Below, one piece after another: positions 5,968-40,466 of a stretch of 64,000 nucleotides of DNA. The stretch is taken from contig JAFTIM010000015.1 in assembly GCA_017456885.1 (NCBI GenBank), positions 186,001 to 250,000 of the forward strand, read 5' to 3'. A program made the translations under genes and the position numbers. The notes under the pieces are model-generated. The model did not search any database. It saw only the letters and a program-made list of their open reading frames with translations, and was not told the DNA's origin. Each line of letters starts with the position of its first letter. The first letter of the stretch is position 1. Source of the stretch: Paludibacteraceae bacterium. GTDB lineage: Bacteria; Bacteroidota; Bacteroidia; Bacteroidales; Paludibacteraceae.

Positions 5968-7013
5968 TGAATGCTCACAAAACAAACTCATTGATCGATC
6001 TGCTAAAATTCGTTTTTGCCTTAGCCATTGTTGTTCATCACATTGAGCAATATCGTGCTTCGTGCGGATTTGTCAATTATTGGGAGAATGCCACTATCAT
6101 TAGTTTTGGAAAAACAAGCATTATCTTTTTCTTTGTTTTAAGCGGTTATTTGGTTACCAACTCCTTTTTACGACAAGCAACTTTCGACATCAAGAAGTTT
6201 TATAAAAGACGTTTGCTACGGATTGCCCCCTTATACTACATTTTGGTATGCTGTTCGATATTTATTTTTCCGAATATCAACCTATTAAACAGCACTTCCT
6301 CCCTTGCCGACACAACTCAAAACCTGCTTTATTTTCTGTTTTTGCCCAACATTGTCCTTGCGGCATTTCCGGCAAATCCTTTTTTGGCACACACTTGGTT
6401 TGTGGGTACTACCGAGCAATACCATTTTCTATCGGCATTATGCTACAAATATTCAAAAAGCAGACAAACCTATGCTTTTCTGTTAATGGCTTTGGTTGCA
6501 ATCTATTGGGCATTCGGACTTTATGTAAAAATATTTGCCCAAGAGTCTTTTGCATATACCTTTTGGCACTATTTTAACATCGATTGTCTTGCCATTGGTG
6601 CCATTTTTGCCCTTCTTCCAAAAGAGGGGAAATGGATATCGTTCCTTAAAAAAAAGTGCGTATTCATCGTGTCAGCACTCGTTTTTATATTTTTACTCAT
6701 AAGCGGCATAGTAATTCCTTTCGTTTACAATCAGTTATTGGCTCTGTGTTTCGGGGTTTTCATTTACAATATAATGCAACACGATACCTCGTTTGCTTCC
6801 GCCAATGGGGTTGTCCGTTTTTTGGGAAAAATTTCTTACAGCATTTATATGATTCATCCGATCGTCATCATCTGTACAATCAATTTACTACAAGAATACG
6901 CCAACGCAACGATTCTAACATACGGATTCGTAGTTTTATTCACTTTATTGGTTGCTTCGGCATATCATATTTTTATAGAAAAACGCATCACCAACAAGCC
7001 GTTTTCTCACTAA
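5967..7013 (+). CDS. acyltransferase family 3 membrane protein
   Basis: Membrane-bound O-acyltransferase of the AT3 (OafA/NodX-like) family, 348 residues with about ten predicted membrane helices. It begins with the family's catalytic-His region (IVVHHIEQYRA, about residue 20). Next come SIIFFFVLSGYLV and YKRRLLRIAPLYY, also diagnostic, and a late SYSIYMIHPI helix. Such enzymes usually acetylate surface sugars or lipids; the substrate here is not predictable. The ATG at 5967 overlaps the hydrolase stop (TGATG). A GTG one codon upstream is possible but less likely. Confidence 0.85.
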   Translation: MNAHKTNSLIDLLKFVFALAIVVHHIEQYRASCGFVNYWENATIISFGKTSIIFFFVLSGYLVTNSFLRQATFDIKKFYKRRLLRIAPLYYILVCCSIFIFPNINLLNSTSSLADTTQNLLYFLFLPNIVLAAFPANPFLAHTWFVGTTEQYHFLSALCYKYSKSRQTYAFLLMALVAIYWAFGLYVKIFAQESFAYTFWHYFNIDCLAIGAIFALLPKEGKWISFLKKKCVFIVSALVFIFLLISGIVIPFVYNQLLALCFGVFIYNIMQHDTSFASANGVVRFLGKISYSIYMIHPIVIICTINLLQEYANATILTYGFVVLFTLLVASAYHIFIEKRITNKPFSH

Positions 7014-7064
7014 AAAATTAGGGATTTAAGAGTAAGGGATTGCATTGCTACTACGAAAAAATCG

Positions 7065-7072
7065 TATTTTTG
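7065..7072 (+). promoter_or_regulatory. promoter -7 box for TonB-dependent receptor
   Basis: TATTTTTG fits TAnnTTTG, with a TTG at 7045-7047 upstream that could serve as the -33 element. The receptor ATG follows at 7111. Confidence 0.55.
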
Positions 7073-7110
7073 CACCCGATTTCGCATGCCGAAATCCTAA
7101 TTTTTATTTT

Positions 7111-9219
7111 ATGTTCAAACAATTTCTTAAAAAGCGTTCCTTTCGCTTCCGTCAGTTTAGCCGCAAGGCATACGCTGCTTTTTGTTCCTTGCACCGCGAG
7201 GTAACCATCGGGCGTGTGTCGGGCTATATGACCGAACTGGAGATGCTCAAGCATGGCAAAAGCGCAGCATTGACCGCCCTTATGCTGATGGCAGGCATTT
7301 CGACCATGGAAGCGGAAGACGAAGTCCCGACAGACTCCGAATCGACAGAACCCCAGCAACTTAGTCTTCAGGAGGTGCTGGTAGTTTCCCGTAAAGCTGA
7401 AGTTAATTCGGATGCGTATCGGCTCATTACGCAAGTCTCCCACGACGAGATTCAGGCTTTGCCTATCCAGACCGTAGCGGATATTTTACAATATCTGCCG
7501 GGTATTGATGTCCGCACGCGAGGCGCCAACGGCGCACAAGCGGACATCAGCATGCGCGGTGGCACCTTCGACCAAGTGCTCGTCATGCTCAACGGCGTGA
7601 GTCTCAACGACTTCCACACGGGGCACTATGCGCTCAACCTGCCTATCTCGCCCTCGCTCATAGAGCGCGTGGAGGTCTTGCAGGGCACGTCCGCTAACCT
7701 CTTCGGAGCCTTCTCCGGAGCCATCAACATCATCACAAAGACCGCTCCCGAGATGGTGATGAAACTCACGGCGGGCATGAACGGCTTGGTAAACCCCGAG
7801 TTTACAGGCTCGTGGCAGAAAGGCGATGTGCATATCAATGCCTCTGCCGAGTACTCTCGCGCCGAGGGCTACTATGCCCCCGACCCCACCGAGAAAGAGC
7901 AGACGGCGCTCACCAACTCCGACTACCAGTTGGCGAACCTCTACCTGCAGACGCGGTGGCGCGGGCTGGATGTGCAGATGGGCGCACAGTGGAAAGACGC
8001 AGGTGCAGGCATGTACTATGGTTTCGGCTCGCAAGACCAGTTCGACGCCACACGCACGGCTTTCGCTTCGGCGAAGTACGCCCATCGTTGGGGCGCATGG
8101 CGACTGGAAGCGCAGGCGGCTTATCGCGCCAACTACGACCGCTACGAGTGGCACCGCGGGCAACGACTCTACGGCAATTTCCATTTCGCGCAGACTGCTT
8201 CGGCTGCCCTCTTGGCACACTATGCTTCCCGCATAGGTACCACCTCTTTCGGCGTCAGCATACGCAACGAGAACATCCACTCCACCAACCTCGGCGATAC
8301 CATCAACCCCGGCGGGCAGATTCCCAACGTGGAGGGCTTCAACTTGGCGGACGTGCGGGTGTTGGACTTGGTACGCGGAGGCAACCGCTTCCACCTCAAC
8401 TACTTTGCAGAGCAGACCTTCTACTACGCAGGCTTGTCGGCTTCGTTGGGCGTGAACGGCACCTACAACACGCAGTTTGGCAACCACTTTGCAGGGGGTG
8501 CAAACATCGGCTATGAGTACGCAAAGAATAGCAGCGTCTATATCAATGCCAATCGTTCGCTCCGTATGCCTACCTTCACAGACCTCTACTACAATGCAGG
8601 CAACCAGTTGGGAAACAAACACTTACAGCCCGAAGAGGCGTGGTTGCTCTCTGCAGGAACGAAGTACAACCCCACCTTCGGCAAGGCGGGCAGTCTCTCG
8701 CTGGCGGCAGACTGGTACTACCGTTGGGGCAAGAACATCATCGATTGGGTCTATACCCCCGAGGATAGCAAGCGCCCCTACCACGCGCAGAACCAGCAGC
8801 AGGTAAACGCGACGGGTGTGGAACTTTCCGTAGCGTATCGCTGGAACGAATGGCTGCGCTGCTTGTCCGTGGACTATGCCTACACCTATCTGGACTTGGA
8901 CTTGAAGGAGGCGGGCTCACGCTACCTCGACTACCTGAGCCACAAACTCACTATCCACCTCGAGCACGGCATTTACAAAGGCTTGGGTGCTTCTTGGACG
9001 GTGCGCTACCAGCAGCGCGAAGGGCAGTTCAACAATGCGCAGGGCGAAGTGCAAGACTACCAACCCGTTTGGCTCTTGGACGGCTCGCTCTTCTGGCAGA
9101 ACAAGCACCTGCGCGTGAGTGTGGACTGCACCAACATGACCAACACCCGCTACTACGACTACGGAGGCATTCTCCAGCCCGGCGCATGGGCGAAGATATC
9201 CATCAAAGCCAATTTGTAA
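7111..9219 (+). CDS. TonB-dependent outer-membrane receptor (BtuB-like)
   Basis: Outer-membrane gated channel for a scarce ligand (cobalamin-, iron- or similar complex), powered by TonB. The 702-residue protein starts with an N-terminal stretch of the SRKAYAAFCSLHREVTIG type often seen on Bacteroidales receptors. A plug domain follows (about residues 95-205: DILQYLPGIDVRTRG, ISMRGGTFDQVLVMLNG, IERVEVLQGTSANLFGAFSGAINIITK) and then a 22-strand barrel with a C-terminal NMTNTRYYDYGG...WAKISIKANL. No carboxypeptidase-like domain or SusD partner is present, so it is not a SusC. The coding sequence is clearly richer in G+C than the genes before it. It is followed by a strong terminator. The longer start at 7045 precedes the promoter box and is rejected. 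Confidence 0.88.
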   Translation: MFKQFLKKRSFRFRQFSRKAYAAFCSLHREVTIGRVSGYMTELEMLKHGKSAALTALMLMAGISTMEAEDEVPTDSESTEPQQLSLQEVLVVSRKAEVNSDAYRLITQVSHDEIQALPIQTVADILQYLPGIDVRTRGANGAQADISMRGGTFDQVLVMLNGVSLNDFHTGHYALNLPISPSLIERVEVLQGTSANLFGAFSGAINIITKTAPEMVMKLTAGMNGLVNPEFTGSWQKGDVHINASAEYSRAEGYYAPDPTEKEQTALTNSDYQLANLYLQTRWRGLDVQMGAQWKDAGAGMYYGFGSQDQFDATRTAFASAKYAHRWGAWRLEAQAAYRANYDRYEWHRGQRLYGNFHFAQTASAALLAHYASRIGTTSFGVSIRNENIHSTNLGDTINPGGQIPNVEGFNLADVRVLDLVRGGNRFHLNYFAEQTFYYAGLSASLGVNGTYNTQFGNHFAGGANIGYEYAKNSSVYINANRSLRMPTFTDLYYNAGNQLGNKHLQPEEAWLLSAGTKYNPTFGKAGSLSLAADWYYRWGKNIIDWVYTPEDSKRPYHAQNQQQVNATGVELSVAYRWNEWLRCLSVDYAYTYLDLDLKEAGSRYLDYLSHKLTIHLEHGIYKGLGASWTVRYQQREGQFNNAQGEVQDYQPVWLLDGSLFWQNKHLRVSVDCTNMTNTRYYDYGGILQPGAWAKISIKANL

Positions 9220-21932: not shown

Positions 21933-22520
21933 ATGAAAGAACCTTTTAAGATAAAAAACATAGCACATCTGCAACTCATTTTGGCTTCGCAATCGCCACG
22001 CCGAAAAGAATTGCTCTCCAAATTAGGATTGGATTTTAAAACACAAAACGTCGATGTAGAAGAAGATTTTCCCGCATCGTTGCAAAGGGAGGAGATTGTG
22101 GAATTCCTTGCAAAAAAGAAAGCAGATGCCTTTCCCATCAAACCCCAGCAGCTTGTCATTACAGCCGACACCATCGTTTGGCACGAAAACCAACTTTTTG
22201 GCAAACCCAAAGACATTGCAGACGCAAAAGCAATGCTACGACAACTATCGGGGCATACACACGAAGTTTTTACTGGAGTTGGGCTGACCACAACCCACAA
22301 ACAACGAATTTTCTCAGTTCGTTCCGAAGTCCGCTTTGCACCGTTGAGCGACGAAGAAATCGATTACTACATCGACACCTATCGCCCATTGGATAAAGCG
22401 GGAGCCTACGGCATTCAGGAATGGATAGGATTTGTAGGTATCGAAGCCATTTCAGGGTCGTTTTGGAACGTCATGGGCTTGCCCATACAACGACTTTATC
22501 AGGAATTACGAAATTTTTAA
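21933..22520 (+). CDS. maf: Maf-like nucleotide pyrophosphatase
   Basis: House-cleaning nucleoside-triphosphate pyrophosphatase (dTTP/UTP type or a modified-nucleotide type), 195 residues. It shows LILASQSPRRKELLSKLG at the N-terminus, ITADTIVWHENQLFGKPKD with the catalytic aspartate, SGHTHEVFTGVGL, and DKAGAYGIQEWIG near residue 155. ATG 21933 fits the family start. A TTG 9 bases earlier touches the AsmA stop and is not preferred. It ends at a terminator. Confidence 0.93.
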   Translation: MKEPFKIKNIAHLQLILASQSPRRKELLSKLGLDFKTQNVDVEEDFPASLQREEIVEFLAKKKADAFPIKPQQLVITADTIVWHENQLFGKPKDIADAKAMLRQLSGHTHEVFTGVGLTTTHKQRIFSVRSEVRFAPLSDEEIDYYIDTYRPLDKAGAYGIQEWIGFVGIEAISGSFWNVMGLPIQRLYQELRNF

Positions 22521-22550
22521 CAGAGGAGATTACCTTTTTTCCCCTTTTTC

Positions 22551-33338: not shown

Positions 33339-33653
33339 TTAATTCTCATCGTCGTTGTCCATTTTTAGTTGTTGTTTTACAGGGCAATCGGCGGCGTGCG
33401 GGCAATCGGCTATCTTGTCGATGGCACGGTTCAATTTCCGCACATCGCGCCGCAGGGCGTTTATCTCTTTTTTCAGCGGCTCCACCACATAGCCCATCAC
33501 TATCTGTGCCGCTTTCTCGTCGTTGTCGAGTTCGACGCTCTTGGCCTGCTCCTTGGTCTTTTTCAATGTCGGTTTCAGCGTTACAAGCGTAACGATGCCT
33601 CCGCTCACAAACAGCACATTCAGCACAAGGCTGACAATCTCGAATGTTGTCAT
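33339..33653 (-). CDS. small membrane protein, holin candidate
   Basis: A 104-residue protein: one N-terminal membrane helix (TTFEIVSLVLNVLFVSGGIVTLVTL, residues 2-26) followed by a charged helical tail with a coiled coil (KEINALRRDVRKLNRAIDKI) and a cysteine/histidine pair CPHAADCP. The start at 33653 overlaps the amidase stop (ATGA). Its position after the endolysin suggests a holin or lysis regulator, but a single helix plus cytoplasmic coil is also seen in other phage proteins. Confidence 0.55.
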   Translation of the reverse strand: MTTFEIVSLVLNVLFVSGGIVTLVTLKPTLKKTKEQAKSVELDNDEKAAQIVMGYVVEPLKKEINALRRDVRKLNRAIDKIADCPHAADCPVKQQLKMDNDDEN

Positions 33654-34063
33654 AGTAGTGCCTCCTTTATCCATTTTTGCACGTCGAAACACGGGCACGC
33701 TTTGTTGGCAAACTCGTTATGCCCATGGATAGTCGCCGTCGGGAAACGCCGTTTCAACTCCCGTATCAATCCCGCCATGGCTGTTTTTTGTGCGTCGGTG
33801 CGGGTGTCTTTCGGCCGATGGTTCCGGTCGCAGCCGCCAACGTAACAGATGCCGATGCTGTGTGCATTCCGTCCTTGGCAATGTGCGCCCACCTGTTCCA
33901 ATGGGCGACCATTGCGCACGCTGCCGTCTGCCATTATCACATAGTGGTAGCCGATGTCCGAAAAACCGCGCTCCTTGTGCCAACGGCGTATTTCGTCCAC
34001 CGTTACCGCACGTCCCTCGGGCGTGTCCGAGCAGTGAATAATGATTTTGTCTATTGTTCTCAT
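33650..34063 (-). CDS. N-acetylmuramoyl-L-alanine amidase (endolysin)
   Basis: Cell-wall hydrolase of the T7-lysozyme type (amidase_2 fold), 137 residues. Zinc ligands fit: IIIHCSDTP (His10), a late HGHNEF and ACPCFDV cysteine. GYHYVIMADGSV and NAHSIGICYVGG are typical. It has no signal peptide, so it needs a holin; the coupled membrane protein downstream is the candidate. Confidence 0.93.
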   Translation of the reverse strand: MRTIDKIIIHCSDTPEGRAVTVDEIRRWHKERGFSDIGYHYVIMADGSVRNGRPLEQVGAHCQGRNAHSIGICYVGGCDRNHRPKDTRTDAQKTAMAGLIRELKRRFPTATIHGHNEFANKACPCFDVQKWIKEALL

Positions 34064-34370: not shown

Positions 34371-34849
34371 TGTTTCACTTTTTCGTCTTCGTAATCGCTT
34401 TTGCTAAATTTTGTTACAAGTGTTTCTGTTATCGCCGTTTGTCCATTCGGACAAACATGCGTATGCGTTTGTAAATCATTTGCCAAAGCATTCAATTTTT
34501 CAGTCAATTTCTCGATGTTAATCAATCCGCCGTTATTGCCGCCGTTAAACGATACTTTGTCGCAGGCAATTTCCACTTTCTCTATTTCGCTGTAAGCAAT
34601 CACCAGCAAATCGGTCATTGCATCTCCAAGGTCTATCATGGTTACATAACTTTCGCACGCAGGCGTAATCAGCATTTTGCTCTCTTTGCCATTCACCACG
34701 GCACGCAGGCGTACATCGCTGAGCGTGAGGTCGTCGACCTGAACCGTACACGTTTCTCCATCTACGCTCTTCACCCGGCCGACGTAGAGCATCTCTCTAT
34801 GACCGGCTATCTGGCGAATACTTCTTTTAATTCTACTAAAATCGTCCAT
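34367..34849 (-). CDS. baseplate spike protein (Mu gp45 / gpV-like)
   Basis: A 160-residue spike protein: an OB-fold N-terminal half (YVGRVKSVDGETCTVQVDD) and a beta-helix-like part (EKVEIACDKVSFNGGNNGGLINIEKL). The tip region contains HTHVCPNG, an H-x-H pair typical of metal-capped spikes. It starts at 34849, facing the moron promoter at 34866. Confidence 0.78.
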   Translation of the reverse strand: MDDFSRIKRSIRQIAGHREMLYVGRVKSVDGETCTVQVDDLTLSDVRLRAVVNGKESKMLITPACESYVTMIDLGDAMTDLLVIAYSEIEKVEIACDKVSFNGGNNGGLINIEKLTEKLNALANDLQTHTHVCPNGQTAITETLVTKFSKSDYEDEKVKH

Positions 34850-34865
34850 CGTTTAAACTTTTATT

Positions 34866-34873
34866 TACATTTG
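34866..34873 (+). promoter_or_regulatory. promoter -7 box of the plus-strand moron
   Basis: TACATTTG matches TAnnTTTG in the 57-base gap between the divergent spike gene and the moron ATG at 34907. It should allow expression in the lysogen independent of phage late genes. Confidence 0.65.
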
Positions 34874-34906
34874 TGGTCGAAAAAATATCAAAATCTGTTA
34901 CGACCT

Positions 34907-35728
34907 ATGAAAAAAACAACGCTTCTTTGTTTGCTAATCGTTGCATTGCCTGTAACTCTTTTTTCACAACCTTACCTCAAAGGCAAGGTGAAAGTGGTAA
35001 ATTCGCTTGCCGACTACAAAGTGCGAGTGGTAAATGCCTTCCCCGATCTCAAAGTACAAATCGTCAACACCACGCCACACCACGATGGTCAGTGGCAAAT
35101 GGTAACAGCCTTGGAAGATTTCTCCATTCAGTTTGTCGATGCCTTCGAGGACTTTACCATTCAGTATGTCGACGCTTTCCCGGGTCCGACTAAAAAACAC
35201 AATGCTTCGCCGGCTGTTTCGTCGCAATCAAACGCACAAACCGTTTCCGAATCGTCAACATCGTCTTCCACTGTTGTTGTTTCAGGTTGGCCCAATCGCA
35301 GGGTGCTTCCCAATTCCGAATACGGCGTGGTGGTCGAAGAGGATTCTTTCTCTATTCCTCGGAGGCTTCCCGGACGCAAATTTCCGATCCACGCTCGAGT
35401 ACAGATTGTCGATTCGTTGCCCGACTTGCTGTTAAAATACAGTTCAGGAAAAGCTTTCCCAAACCTTAAGCTTTCAATGGACTCCACCGCTTCCGACAAA
35501 AAATTCCATTGGCAGATTGTCGATTCTTGCCCCGACTTCACCATACAGTTCTACAACTATTGGCAGTATGTTGATGCCATTGTCGTTTTTACAAACTTCT
35601 ACGACGACAAAAACCTCCGAATCATCCTTTACGAGAATAGCAAGAAGAGCAGAGCACTTTTCCCCGAACCCGATAAAGTACCGCCTTTGCCCGACTGCAA
35701 ACCGCTTCCACTCTCCAATGGTCGTTAA
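34907..35728 (+). CDS. secreted beta-repeat protein; prophage moron
   Basis: A 273-residue protein read against the surrounding late operon, with its own host-type promoter. A signal peptide (MKKTTLLCLLIVALPVTLFS) is followed by 11- to 12-residue repeats of the form K-V-x-V-V-N/D-x-F-P-D-x: KVKVVNSLADY, KVRVVNAFPDL, SIQFVDAFEDF, TIQYVDAF, RVQIVDSLPDL. Two longer units carry HDGQWQMVTALEDF and KFHWQIVDSCPDF. A serine/threonine linker splits the repeats (about residues 100-135). This resembles short beta-repeat exported proteins of Bacteroidota (DUF6150-like), but the match is by eye. Its stop overlaps the convergent gpD-like stop. It probably changes the surface of the lysogen; function unknown. 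Confidence 0.75.
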   Translation: MKKTTLLCLLIVALPVTLFSQPYLKGKVKVVNSLADYKVRVVNAFPDLKVQIVNTTPHHDGQWQMVTALEDFSIQFVDAFEDFTIQYVDAFPGPTKKHNASPAVSSQSNAQTVSESSTSSSTVVVSGWPNRRVLPNSEYGVVVEEDSFSIPRRLPGRKFPIHARVQIVDSLPDLLLKYSSGKAFPNLKLSMDSTASDKKFHWQIVDSCPDFTIQFYNYWQYVDAIVVFTNFYDDKNLRIILYENSKKSRALFPEPDKVPPLPDCKPLPLSNGR

Positions 35729-36679: not shown

Positions 36680-37282
36680 TTATTCCTCTTTTATTAACAA
36701 ATCGTAATCGTAGTCGCTCATCGCCTGTATCTCTACCACCTGACGATTGGTGTGCGTCTCTTGCAAGAGCGAATACGACTTCACCACAATGCCGTAATCC
36801 GTATCGCCGTCCAAGTCGAACGGCTCCAAAAATTTACTCGTAATGTATAGGCGGTTCGGCTCGTCGAGCAGGTTGCGCAACCTACGCACACCTACATACG
36901 GATAAACGTCGTATTGTTTGCAGACACCCTGTTCCGTTGCCGTGTAATCGCCATCGGCAGTGGTGCTCACCACCGAAAGTGCCATGCTCAACTGAACATC
37001 GCCCCACGACACCATCTCCTTTACCGTGCCGCGACCGTCGAGCACAGGCGTTGCCACTATGTTCCTGTCGCGGGTGAGCGTTACAACCGCTTCCGGAAAA
37101 TACATCTCGTCGCCGGAAGCTCCCTTCAGCGTCAGTTCCACCGTATAACTATCGCCTACGACAAGCGGATAGGACGACACCAACGACTCCTCCGCTTTCA
37201 AAGCAGACGCATGGTATTTCACTGCCGTTCCAAACGTGGCCGGCAAAAGGCGGACGTTCGGTATTTGTATATTTAGTTTCAT
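36680..37282 (-). CDS. tail protein between tape measure and hub (DUF6046-like)
   Basis: A 200-residue protein conserved in Bacteroidota Mu-like phages, in the slot of Mu gp43 (DNA-circulation protein N type). It has beta-rich content and no motif I can use to assign a function. It overlaps the tape-measure stop by 4 bases and ends 1 base before the hub gene's start codon, so it is translationally linked to both. Confidence 0.65.
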   Translation of the reverse strand: MKLNIQIPNVRLLPATFGTAVKYHASALKAEESLVSSYPLVVGDSYTVELTLKGASGDEMYFPEAVVTLTRDRNIVATPVLDGRGTVKEMVSWGDVQLSMALSVVSTTADGDYTATEQGVCKQYDVYPYVGVRRLRNLLDEPNRLYITSKFLEPFDLDGDTDYGIVVKSYSLLQETHTNRQVVEIQAMSDYDYDLLIKEE

Positions 37283-39222
37283 ATTGCTGTTTCTGCCATT
37301 CCTAAAATTCGTGCCATCAACTCGCGGAGCTTCTGTTCCACATCGCGGCTGTTGTCGGAAAGCGAACCGTTGAAGTTCATCGTTTTCACCATGCTCTCGA
37401 GCGTGATGTTCACCTGTTGTGCCTTCCCGGCCGACACACCCGCCGACGAACCCAAATTGCCACCAATCAATTCGGGTTTGCTACCACCGTTTTTTTTCAC
37501 TTTCTCGGGTTGAAGTATGCCGGCATTTATGTTCCCGTTCTCTATATCGAACGCTCCGTCGGCTTCCTCTTTCTCTTTTTGGTCGCGACGCCACGACTCG
37601 CTCCCTTTTTCGGCTCCTATCCTGTACGCATCGCCTATTTTCTCAAACGCATCTTTCGGAAACAACTTGTTCCAAAGCTTACGTATCGGCTCAAAAAGCT
37701 TCCCGAGTCCGTCTATTATCTTGTTAAAAACATCTTTTATCACCGTCCAAATGCCCGTAAATGCCTGTTTTATGGGCTTTACAAGACGCTCTGTTATCCA
37801 CGTACCGAAACGACCGAGCTTCTCCACCATCCAATCGAATGCCGACACGGCCGAGGTACTTATCCACGTCCAAATGCCCGTAAAAAAGTCGCCGATGCCG
37901 GTGCCCACCTCCACCGCTTTCTCCCACAACCATACGGCACCCTCCACTATGCTCGACCAAAGCGACGAAACATAACCCTTCAGCGTATCGATAAACGGCC
38001 TTACCATCTCCCAAATGCCCGTTATCAGACCTTTCAGCAACTCCCACAAATGCGACACAATGGCTTTTACCACCTCCCACACGCCGAAAAGCAGACGACG
38101 GAAGCCCTCGCTCTTCTCCCACAAAAGTTTGAAAACGGACACCACGGCTGCCACCACAGCCACTATCCAACCTATAATCGGTATGTTTTTTATGGCCGTG
38201 CCTATCGACTTGCACGCCACTTTGGCCGTGGCTGCCAATCCTTTGAAAAACGCTCCCGTTGCCACTATGGCGGTGTTGATAATACTCAAATCGAAAACCG
38301 TATTTAAGGTGCCTTTTCGTACGGCGTTTCGGAATTTGTTCCACTGTTTGGTAGTCCATTTGATGGCTCCTCCAACGGCCGAAAACAGCGGCGAAAGCTG
38401 AGCAATGGGAAGTGCTACTTGAGCTGCAGCATCTACCCACAAACCAAAATCGCCCGTAGCATTGAATATCGCCACCTTTACCTCTTCTATTGTGTCTTGT
38501 ATAGAAGCCATTTTGCCTGCTGTGGTTTCCGAAGCTTCGGCTATGGCGTTATAGAAAAGCCCTCCTTCGCTCGTAGCCGATTGGAAAGCTGCCTCTACCA
38601 TTCCAACAGAAACAGCCCCTTTCTCCATCTCTTTTTTGAGATCTGCAACACTTTTTCCCGTTTGTTTGCTTATCTCTTGCAAGGGATTAAAGCCCGCATT
38701 GACCATTTGCATCAAATCCTGACCCGTCAATTTCCCTGTACTCGACATTTGAGCAAATGCCAACGAAAGCGACTGCATTTTCTGCTTATCGCCCATGGCG
38801 ATGTCGCCAATTTGCTTGAGCGTTTCAAACGCTTTTTCGCCCTCGATGCCAAACGACATCATCGTGCGTTGTGCCTCTATAAGCCCAGCCTTGTCGTATG
38901 GCGTTACCTTGCCGTATTCCGATATTCGTTCATACATATCGTTCGCAGCCTCGGCATTTCCGCCAAACAAGGTTTTCAGGTTCATCAGCTGAAGCTCCGC
39001 ATTCGCTCCTGCTTGCGTAATGCCTCCTATAGCATCATTAACGCTTTGAATAGTGGACACAACACCTTGAAATGCTACTGCCTTACCTTTAATTCCTTCA
39101 AAGACATTTACTGTTTGCGACAAACTTTTATTTAATACACCTGTGCTTTGCACGATGTTATTTATAACCTCATTTGCATTGCCTGTAATATTAAATATGT
39201 AGTTTATTGTTTGGTTATTCAT
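37279..39222 (-). CDS. tail tape measure protein
   Basis: A 647-residue protein that sets tail length and enters the cell during DNA injection. The tape-measure core domain spans about residues 60-230 (LQLMNLKTLFGGNAEAANDMYERISEYGKVTPYDKAGLIEA, TGKLTGQDLMQMVNAGFNPLQEISKQTG). Hydrophobic helices follow (about 265-375: FFKGLAATAKVACKSI, IGWIVAVVAAVVSVFKLL), then tryptophan-rich repeats (LWEKAVEVGTGIGDFFTGIWTWIS). It is short for the family, predicting a tail of modest length. The 5' end is repeated upstream as two decayed copies. Confidence 0.9.
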   Translation of the reverse strand: MNNQTINYIFNITGNANEVINNIVQSTGVLNKSLSQTVNVFEGIKGKAVAFQGVVSTIQSVNDAIGGITQAGANAELQLMNLKTLFGGNAEAANDMYERISEYGKVTPYDKAGLIEAQRTMMSFGIEGEKAFETLKQIGDIAMGDKQKMQSLSLAFAQMSSTGKLTGQDLMQMVNAGFNPLQEISKQTGKSVADLKKEMEKGAVSVGMVEAAFQSATSEGGLFYNAIAEASETTAGKMASIQDTIEEVKVAIFNATGDFGLWVDAAAQVALPIAQLSPLFSAVGGAIKWTTKQWNKFRNAVRKGTLNTVFDLSIINTAIVATGAFFKGLAATAKVACKSIGTAIKNIPIIGWIVAVVAAVVSVFKLLWEKSEGFRRLLFGVWEVVKAIVSHLWELLKGLITGIWEMVRPFIDTLKGYVSSLWSSIVEGAVWLWEKAVEVGTGIGDFFTGIWTWISTSAVSAFDWMVEKLGRFGTWITERLVKPIKQAFTGIWTVIKDVFNKIIDGLGKLFEPIRKLWNKLFPKDAFEKIGDAYRIGAEKGSESWRRDQKEKEEADGAFDIENGNINAGILQPEKVKKNGGSKPELIGGNLGSSAGVSAGKAQQVNITLESMVKTMNFNGSLSDNSRDVEQKLRELMARILGMAETAI

Positions 39223-39230
39223 TTTTTTTC

Positions 39231-39238
39231 TATATTTG
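39231..39238 (+). promoter_or_regulatory. promoter for small divergent gene
   Basis: TATATTTG (-7 box) with TTTG at 39210-39213 as -33 element, 17 bases between, on the plus strand, overlapping the start region of the tape-measure gene. Confidence 0.65.
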
Positions 39239-39262
39239 AAGCCAATTTTTAAACAAAAAGTT

Positions 39263-39463
39263 ATGTTTGGATTTATTATTTTTGTTGCACTTCTTTATTA
39301 TTTTATAAGAGTTCTTTTAGTAATACTTTTCCCAGATAACGATAAATTCGATAAATGGGGATGTGGGGGGGATTCTTCTAAGAAAAAAGATGCCCCTTTA
39401 AAACAAAATATTACAATCTCAATTAATGTAAAGCAAAAATCCGACAAAGACGGCAAAAACTAA
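39263..39463 (+). CDS. small membrane protein 1, divergent from tape measure
   Basis: A 66-residue protein with one N-terminal membrane helix (MFGFIIFVALLYYFIRVLLVILFP) and a polar tail ending NITISINVKQKSDKDGKN. It is A+T-rich and read against the tail operon from its own promoter. A paralogue with the same layout lies at 39593-39826. No family was recognised; a lysogen-expressed membrane protein (for example superinfection exclusion) is a guess from design. Confidence 0.6.
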   Translation: MFGFIIFVALLYYFIRVLLVILFPDNDKFDKWGCGGDSSKKKDAPLKQNITISINVKQKSDKDGKN

Positions 39464-39550
39464 TTCTTCTAAAACATCATTCACTTGTAACACCCCTTTG
39501 TAGGCATTACCATTCAGGTTTATCGTAAAATTTAATGTTTCGTTTGCCAT
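39419..39550 (-). pseudogene. decayed copy of the tape-measure 5' end, copy 1
   Basis: From ATG 39550 the minus strand encodes MANETLNFTINLNGNAYKG and 24 further residues, then a stop. The start aligns with the tape-measure N-terminus (NNQTINYIFNITGNAN). After about 30 residues the frame runs into the antisense of small membrane protein 1. It is therefore a truncated tape-measure start, not a functional gene. Confidence 0.65.
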
Positions 39551-39592
39551 TGTTTTGTTTTTTTACTACATTGCAATACAAAATTTGTTATT

Positions 39593-39826
39593 ATGATTCT
39601 AATCGCTATCATATTTTGGGTTATAATTATCTTTTCAGTTTTAGGTTTTATTCTAAAAATAATTGAACTTATTAGAGAAAAACCGTCTAATAAAACTGCA
39701 ACATTTCCAGAACCTCTTAAAAGCCTGCTTGGAAGCGATAATACCATTCATAATATTACAATTACGATTAACACAGAGCAAGAATCCGATAAGAACTCTG
39801 AATTTGATACTCAAAAAATAGATTAA
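39593..39826 (+). CDS. small membrane protein 2, paralogue of protein 1
   Basis: A 77-residue protein with an N-terminal membrane helix (LIAIIFWVIIIFSVLGFILKIIEL) and a polar tail with HNITITINTEQESDKNSEF, matching the NITISINVKQKSDKDG end of the gene at 39263. Each lies about 40 bases from an oppositely oriented tape-measure start. A degraded promoter (TACATTG) may serve it. Function unknown. Confidence 0.55.
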   Translation: MILIAIIFWVIIIFSVLGFILKIIELIREKPSNKTATFPEPLKSLLGSDNTIHNITITINTEQESDKNSEFDTQKID

Positions 39827-39960
39827 TGTATCTGCAAATTTTTTTATGCTAGAAGATGCATTCTCTACACTTTTAATAACTTGTTCTACTGCATCATCTA
39901 TCTGCAGAATACCTTTATAAGCATTCCCGTTTAGGTTTATTGTAAAATTTAATGTGTTGT
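39818..39960 (-). pseudogene. decayed copy of the tape-measure 5' end, copy 2
   Basis: The minus strand encodes ENNTLNFTINLNGNAYKG, then ILQIDDAVEQVIKSVENASSS and more, closely similar to copy 1 and to the tape-measure start. There is no ATG; the 5' side is replaced by a TTTTCAATTCTCCAT repeat tract. Its 3' side passes into antisense of small membrane protein 2. Confidence 0.6.
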
Positions 39961-39993
39961 TTTCAATTCTCCATTTTCAATTCTCCATTTACC

Positions 39994-40466
39994 TCACTTC
40001 TTTTTTGCACCAAACATAGCGGCCAGTAGTTCTGCTTGGTTTTGCAGCCGGAAGCTCTCAAGCCAAAGGGCTTGGGCGTAAGCCTCGGCAAACTCCATGG
40101 GCGTGAGCCTGTGCGTATCGATACCGAGATTCGCCCGTATCAAGGCACTCATTTTCATTAAGTCGTCGGAGTCGGTTTTGGCGTCCGCACCAAGTGCAAA
40201 CGCCTCTACGAGTTTTTTATTTCAGCCACCACGCCTTCTTGCAACACCCCCATTTTTGACACCACGGCCATAAGCAGGTAAGGGTCGGTTTTCAGACATT
40301 CGTCGCCACCAAGCCAGCAACCTTTGAGCAACTCCACGGCGGCAAGCACCTCGTCGGTCTTGCCTAACTTGTTTACACGACTCAACGTTGCAATATCGGG
40401 TCGGCACACACGGCACGAATACTCGTTTTCGCCATCGCGTACCACTATTTCTATCTCTTTTTTCAT
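39994..40466 (-). CDS. tail assembly chaperone, -1 frameshift fusion product
   Basis: Reading to the AAC codon at 40212-40214 and slipping back one base gives a 157-residue fusion. The extension reads LVEAFALGADAKTDSDDLMKMSALIRAN and ends AELLAAMFGAKKK at the TGA at 39994. The extension is helical, coding-like and has no start codon of its own at its head, as in lambda gpG-T and Mu gp41 fusions. This explains the 200 bases after the short ORF, which otherwise look empty. Confidence 0.75.
40206..40466 (-). CDS. tail assembly chaperone, short (zero-frame) product
   Basis: An 86-residue protein in the Mu gp41 position, between tail tube and tape measure. It begins MKKEIEIVVRDGENEYSCRVCRP and ends AEIKNS. 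Tail assembly chaperones coat the tape measure during tail assembly and are normally made in two forms by -1 frameshifting. A slippery A AAA AAC precedes the stop by one codon, and the -1 frame is open for a further 72 codons. Confidence 0.8.
   Translation of the reverse strand: MKKEIEIVVRDGENEYSCRVCRPDIATLSRVNKLGKTDEVLAAVELLKGCWLGGDECLKTDPYLLMAVVSKMGVLQEGVVAEIKNS
40212..40218 (-). promoter_or_regulatory. -1 ribosomal frameshift site A AAA AAC
   Basis: On the minus strand the zero-frame codons are ATA AAA AAC TCG TAG, so the heptamer A AAA AAC has the X XXY YYZ phase required for simultaneous slippage. Confidence 0.75.

Follow-up and report, generated by a model that had tools for sequence, protein, structure and literature searches.

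The gap between the tail chaperone gene and the tape measure protein (TMP) gene of a prophage from a Paludibacteraceae bacterium is best explained, with somewhat better than even confidence, as a stack of reverse-strand superinfection-exclusion genes, built by recombination, that travel with the TMP N-terminus. For a membrane-protein gene that is reversed, has a housekeeping-type promoter and varies together with the TMP N-terminus, a role in exclusion is the simplest reading. The lysogen would make a membrane protein of 41-110 residues from a housekeeping promoter that sits in the interval separating the small gene from the TMP start and is directed away from the TMP. In the inner membrane, this protein would block the DNA entry of incoming phages; its most likely target would be the N-terminal ~60 residues of the incoming TMP or the entry step that these specify. 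A phage gaining a new TMP N-terminus would also gain the small gene adjacent to it, through joins that link a chaperone 3' end or a small-gene tail to the opening ~15-51 codons of a TMP (in genome G108, one join involves about 240). The small gene already present would remain behind the new unit, together with the sequence upstream of it, as in orphan CDI modules.

Anatomy of the locus in the window

The 64,000-nucleotide stretch analysed here (the window) carries the locus within a Mu-like prophage, which has a Mu-type protease by Pfam; ORFs at 55-58 kb and 45-50 kb are taken by us, from the ORF list, to be transposase-like and of terminase, portal and MuF type, respectively. The tail genes follow one another on the minus strand in the order sheath, tube, chaperone, TMP, and the presence of a DUF2586 sheath (Pfam) indicates a contractile tail. 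The chaperone-TMP gap contains two small membrane-protein genes, on the plus strand, and two remnants of TMP 5' ends, on the minus strand:

37279..39222, minus strand: working TMP, 647 aa, start at 39222 (Pfam TMP_3, E 3.2e-17)
39231..39238, plus strand: -7 box of gene 1, TATATTTG (consensus TAnnTTTG), 24 nt upstream of gene 1
39263..39463, plus strand: small gene 1, 66 aa, hydrophobic N-terminal helix, tail NITISINVKQKSDK
39458..39550, minus strand: TMP 5' remnant 2, ATG at 39550, 31 codons, MANETLNFTINLNGNAYKGVLQVNDVLEEL, ending at the gene 1 stop
39593..39826, plus strand: small gene 2, 77 aa, hydrophobic start, tail NITITINTEQESDK
39809..39964 (approximate), minus strand: TMP 5' remnant 3, about 49-52 codons, no ATG
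39960..39987, plus strand: 14-nt tandem direct repeat, TTTTCAATTCTCCA twice, between remnant 3 and the chaperone
39994..40466, minus strand: tail assembly chaperone region (phrog_19076), upstream anchor of the array
40206-40466 and 39994-40158, minus strand: chaperone ORF and C-terminal ORF, its presumed frameshift partner

Three units would thus be represented in the window: unit 1 (gene 1 with the working TMP), an orphan unit 2 (gene 2 with 31 codons of TMP sequence) and a third, of which a stub is left. We propose that gene 1 is an exclusion gene that forms a pair with the start of the working TMP and that gene 2 is an orphan exclusion gene of a displaced TMP type. The 14-nt tandem repeat is possibly a deletion scar.

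The first-pass annotation described the TMP 5' end as present in three versions, beginning at 39222, at 39550 and near 39960, and alignment statistics confirm this. A profile built without the two remnants (A3) recovers remnants 2 and 3 with E values of 9.6e-14 and 8.9e-8, and an N-terminal profile also built without them (A7) recovers them genome-wide with E values of 8.2e-19 and 4.6e-10; at profile scores of 69.2 and 41.8 bits, their similarity to the TMP is far beyond chance. Codons 1 to about 60 of the TMP form a variable, swapped module and the core is conserved from about codon 66; AlphaFold, run on the TMP with 30 sequences, places residues 1-57 below pLDDT 50. The intact TMP N-termini nearest to remnant 3 are those of loci L035 and L302. 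A further suggestion, that the locus is a reservoir for swapping TMP N-termini, is not supported, because the remnants, at only about 15-51 codons, are too short for use and remnant 3 of the window has no start codon.

The ends of the two small genes match, as had been noticed at first reading: the tails of genes 1 and 2 are alike by BLASTP (E 4e-6 over 18 residues) and share a 44-nt repeat at 77%. The idea that the whole unit of TMP start and divergent gene had been duplicated stands for the small-gene tail and the TMP start only and fails for the membrane halves, of which that of gene 1 is nearest to L020 and that of gene 2 nearest to L302. Simple tandem duplication is thereby ruled out, and units of different origin were joined. 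Locus L020 is the nearest to the window both in the membrane half of gene 1 and in the TMP N-terminus, and the segment from the gene 2 start through the TMP start is 94% identical over 90 nt to unit C of the G108 array described below. Pfam, PHROG and PADLOC contain no family that recognises the small proteins, and a search of viral contigs with both window proteins found no relatives. A C-terminal stretch resembling N-I-x-I-x-I occurs in both window small proteins and in those of L028, L035, L065, L132, L135 and L389; such tails resemble strand-like segments of the TMP and, judged from sequence, may possibly be strand mimicry of it.

Small size and hydrophobicity would also suit type I-like addiction toxins or holins, a reading that we consider highly improbable, since the small genes lie outside the late operon, a likely lysis site exists elsewhere in the form of an amidase (33650-34063) with a small ORF beside it (33339-33698), and neither the position of the small genes nor their covariation with the TMP would be explained. 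The minus-strand late operon contains a second plus-strand gene at 34799-35728, which encodes a predicted secreted repeat protein (MKKTTLLCLLIVALPVTLFSQ...) with no match in Pfam and is likely another reverse moron.

Occurrence, promoter boxes and coding constraint of the small genes

Profile searches of viral contigs, contigs from GTDB and further genomes yielded relatives of the TMP, of which 118 loci have scores of at least 250 once duplicates are removed. This cut-off served for counts of N-terminal types and a cut-off of 300 for the box, Mantel and hydropathy analyses and the nearest-relative comparison; L068, L070, L099, L338 and L314, which have a miscalled TMP start or a low-complexity ORF, were removed by hand from the box, Mantel, hydropathy, nearest-relative and pair analyses. 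A divergent hydrophobic ORF lies directly upstream of 25 of the 27 TMPs whose N-terminus is of the F-x-I-N-[IL]-x-G-N type (Markov shuffles, 35 of 1080), and a candidate divergent gene is present at 14 of 91 loci with the other kind of N-terminus, the five hand-removed loci not having been dropped by name from either count. Across 35 loci the small proteins are 41-110 aa long with a predicted membrane helix, so that their location in the membrane is a prediction from hydropathy only. The N-terminus and the small gene form a portable module that is also found on unrelated TMP cores: upstream sequence of 320 nt or more is available for 43 N-terminal matches, and a small gene accompanies 36 of them and 10 of the 15 with a core score below 200 (the counts include remnants, and L387 is scored as gene-less, yet has an ORF overlapping the TMP start). 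In hankyphage p00 (L144), a 201-bp hypothetical gene at 22341-22541 lies directly upstream of the tape measure gene on the same strand.

The box upstream of gene 1 conforms to TAnnTTTG, which is described as the -7 consensus of the primary (housekeeping) sigma factor of Bacteroidetes (PMC7366714). A perfect box occurs no more than 90 nt upstream of 27 of the 35 small genes, as against 235 of 1750 shuffled sequences, at a distance from the start codon of 20-25 nt in 18 (gene 1 among them), 4-5 nt in 7 and 36-47 nt in 2; the other 8 of 35 have none, and no perfect box was found for gene 2 or its homologue in G108. Counted on the small-gene strand up to 120 nt from the TMP start, the box is present at 26 of 35 loci with the gene versus 5 of 57 without it. 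A sigma-70 scan gave no excess. At L021, L023, L024, L041, L049, L301 and L367 the box stands only 4-5 nt before the small-gene ATG, a spacing that suggests leaderless mRNA; such mRNA is described as rare in Bacteroides (PMC7366714). A strong terminator follows the small gene in three folded units of genome G071 (z -5.1 to -5.6), and none was found after the small genes of the window.

By coding constraint the small genes look like real genes: most of 11 close pairs have pN below pS, and dN/dS is 0.16-0.30 in 7 or 8 of the 11, the count hinging on one near-saturated pair. In the remaining close pairs dN/dS is 0.60, 0.85 and, in one, above 1, and in one it is not computable.

Coupled variation and arrays in related loci

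Comparison of the locus with related prophages, which the first-pass annotation had proposed, revealed further variants. A second copy in the same genome (G000:C13) has 171 of the 180 residues at positions 81-260 in common with the window TMP but 5 of the 40 at positions 21-60, and it carries a different small gene. This copy (L395, G000:C13 1-8000) belongs to a second, truncated prophage remnant, and a difference in both TMP N-terminus and small gene is what would be expected if co-residence requires distinct exclusion types. The TMP of L020, whose small gene is the closest, agrees with that of the window at 146 of 180 core residues and 19 of 40 N-terminal ones. DNA identity of L042 and L033 is about 90% ahead of the variable stretch, 48-66% in the small gene and TMP codons 1-60, and higher again beyond them; between L041 and L301, it is 31-48% in the small-gene tail and 53-61% in TMP codons 1-60, with 76-93% between them and up to 95-100% in the flanks.

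In a partial Mantel test on 35 loci, the small gene correlates with the TMP N-terminus given the core and chaperone (r 0.47, p 0.0005), and with the chaperone end at r 0.13. After dereplication to 29 loci, the partial r is 0.27 for the TMP N-terminus versus 0.16 for the chaperone. Matching is thus supported and is in part due to linkage; adjacent DNA covaries through linkage alone. Pairing is also inexact: L023 and L024 share 98% of their TMP N-terminus and have small proteins that are 62% identical with different tails, and among L026, L029, L030 and L031 the small proteins are 35-58% and the N-termini 84-91% identical, the near-identical pair L029/L030 excepted. The original proposal that the small proteins may be exclusion factors matched to a TMP version has indirect support only, and strict matching is broken at L023/L024 and in unit C of G108, where an L302-type small gene adjoins a different TMP start.

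These two breaks, and the large share of covariation for which linkage accounts, speak for a recombination-prone slot of lysogenic-conversion genes, the small proteins of which do other things, such as changing the envelope, and covary with the TMP through adjacency. We consider this explanation rather unlikely in view of the strong preference of the small genes for one TMP N-terminal type (25/27 versus 14/91), the lower partial r obtained for the chaperone end, which lies just as close, and the L041/L301 comparison, in which tail and TMP N-terminus differ around a conserved stretch.

The interpretation of the locus as the site of repeated recombination, put forward with the original description, is borne out by the variants in relatives, by the sharp drop in identity between conserved flanks and by independent arrays in two other genomes. 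The G108 array has three small genes. Small gene A lies in the first unit, between a chaperone and a TMP truncated at 251 aa; small gene B in the next, where it follows a duplicate of the chaperone 3' end (90% over 72 nt) and precedes a TMP start of 25 codons; and small gene C in the last, with a further TMP start. Of ten proteins tested in the flanks of this array, nine have a housekeeping-type Pfam match and one has none; a search of the G108 genome for a sheath was negative and is weak, as the genome is 82% complete and the controls were silent. In G071, four N-terminal matches, each with its own small gene and three with TMP stubs, occupy one site flanked by SecDF and oxidoreductase genes, and a fifth pair of N-terminus and small gene lies on another contig. 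By eye, the joins in both genomes contain short identical stretches common to chaperone and TMP. The G071 site (L400, G071:C15) is a phage remnant that has kept four small TMP-linked genes and mostly lost its virion genes; it also carries two tandem, closely similar secreted genes (6774-7226 and 7312-7689), the second of which is a DUF6150 gene, and the similarity of the window 34799-35728 protein to the DUF6150 genes of G071 is not significant.

Between host genes, G170 retains a truncated TMP and a small gene. G143 has lost both small gene and TMP N-terminus from this chromosomal site, so retention is not obligatory and G143 was rejected as proof of it. L034 and L065 each have two small genes without TMP stubs; in L034 (2330-2660) the small gene is tandem-duplicated with its promoter, and the copies differ mainly in the tail. 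The window locus is the only one of 148 where the gap ahead of a TMP contains TMP stubs, and such arrays are therefore uncommon.

A gene whose product aids the phage's own TMP, as an insertase, an assembly aid or an antisense control of TMP expression, would also be expected to lie strictly next to the TMP start and to covary with the N-terminus encoded there. Such a role is improbable for a gene with a housekeeping-type promoter on the strand opposite to the late operon, of which orphan copies and chromosomal islands exist without a full TMP and which most TMPs of the other type lack (candidates at 14 of 91). Exclusion, the reading preferred here, draws on the slot shared with gp15 of phage HK97, the putative promoters of the small genes, their coding constraint, the covariation with the TMP N-terminus, the transfer to other TMP cores and the recurrence of arrays; it is weakened by L023/L024, the mismatch in G108 unit C, the boxless gene 2 and 8 of 35 small genes, the loss in G143 and the shrinking of the covariation.

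It is possible, and we suggest it tentatively, that TMP N-termini and small exclusion proteins are matched and polymorphic partners, with an evolution like that of toxin/immunity pairs, in which case stacked orphans, in prophages and in chromosomes that the phage has otherwise left, would record earlier TMP types and may broaden immunity. If so, G071 would hold five such orphan-type exclusion genes and G108 three, and a polymorphic pair beside the TMP start would provide ready-made specificity groups in many Bacteroidales phages, contractile-tailed ones included. Chromosomal arrays would then make exclusion genes findable through short TMP 5' stubs with no need for a sequence family. Such pairs would bear on how prophages recognise the phages to be excluded and on which part of the TMP is recognised at the membrane.

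Comparison with known systems

HK97 hybrids that carry the tube and TMP genes of HK022 are reported to escape exclusion by gp15 (PMC10883804). Like the window genes, gp15 is a small membrane-protein gene (62 aa) in the slot between tail chaperone and TMP, and it has its own annotated terminator. Unlike them, it lies on the late-gene strand and is YebO-like by Pfam, a similarity that the small genes do not have; comparison of gene 1 with gp15 gave only a 16-residue hydrophobic match, and sequence kinship was rejected. In the literature consulted, no reports were found of covariation of gp15 with the TMP N-terminus or of gp15 arrays. By analogy, the small genes would work like gp15-type exclusion without being sequence relatives of gp15.

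The phages of the Ltp, SieA and SNIPE systems are not known to have contractile tails. The tape measure is described as the target of Ltp of TP-J34 and of SNIPE (PMC3952083, PMC13190303), and Ltp, P22 SieA and SNIPE resemble the role proposed here in being membrane-located blocks of DNA entry. The portions of the published accounts consulted do not present them as pairs matched with an adjacent TMP; ltp adjoins the integrase gene, and SNIPE is a nuclease defence system. A literature search that covered few subscription journals, and its sources in part, returned no description of the present gene arrangement.

In structure, the closest parallels lie among bacterial toxin/immunity systems. In orphan cdiA-CT/cdiI modules, the polymorphic end of a large protein is swapped together with a small partner gene, displaced copies stack, and an orphan CDI immunity gene is reported to be functional (PMC3150448); partner genes are likewise stacked in the arrays of tandem esaG immunity genes (PMC9484751). 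The present arrays differ in that they grow at the 5' side of the large gene, with the partner on the opposite strand, and in that the large partner, a toxin in CDI, is here a tape measure by Pfam, so that the claim extends only to how the pairs would work. Where CDI and esaG pair toxin with immunity, the pair here would be a phage TMP N-terminus and a proposed exclusion gene. The analogy is thus a structural one: in the window, in G108 and in G071, as in CDI, the truncated polymorphic end of a large gene is repeated together with a partner gene.
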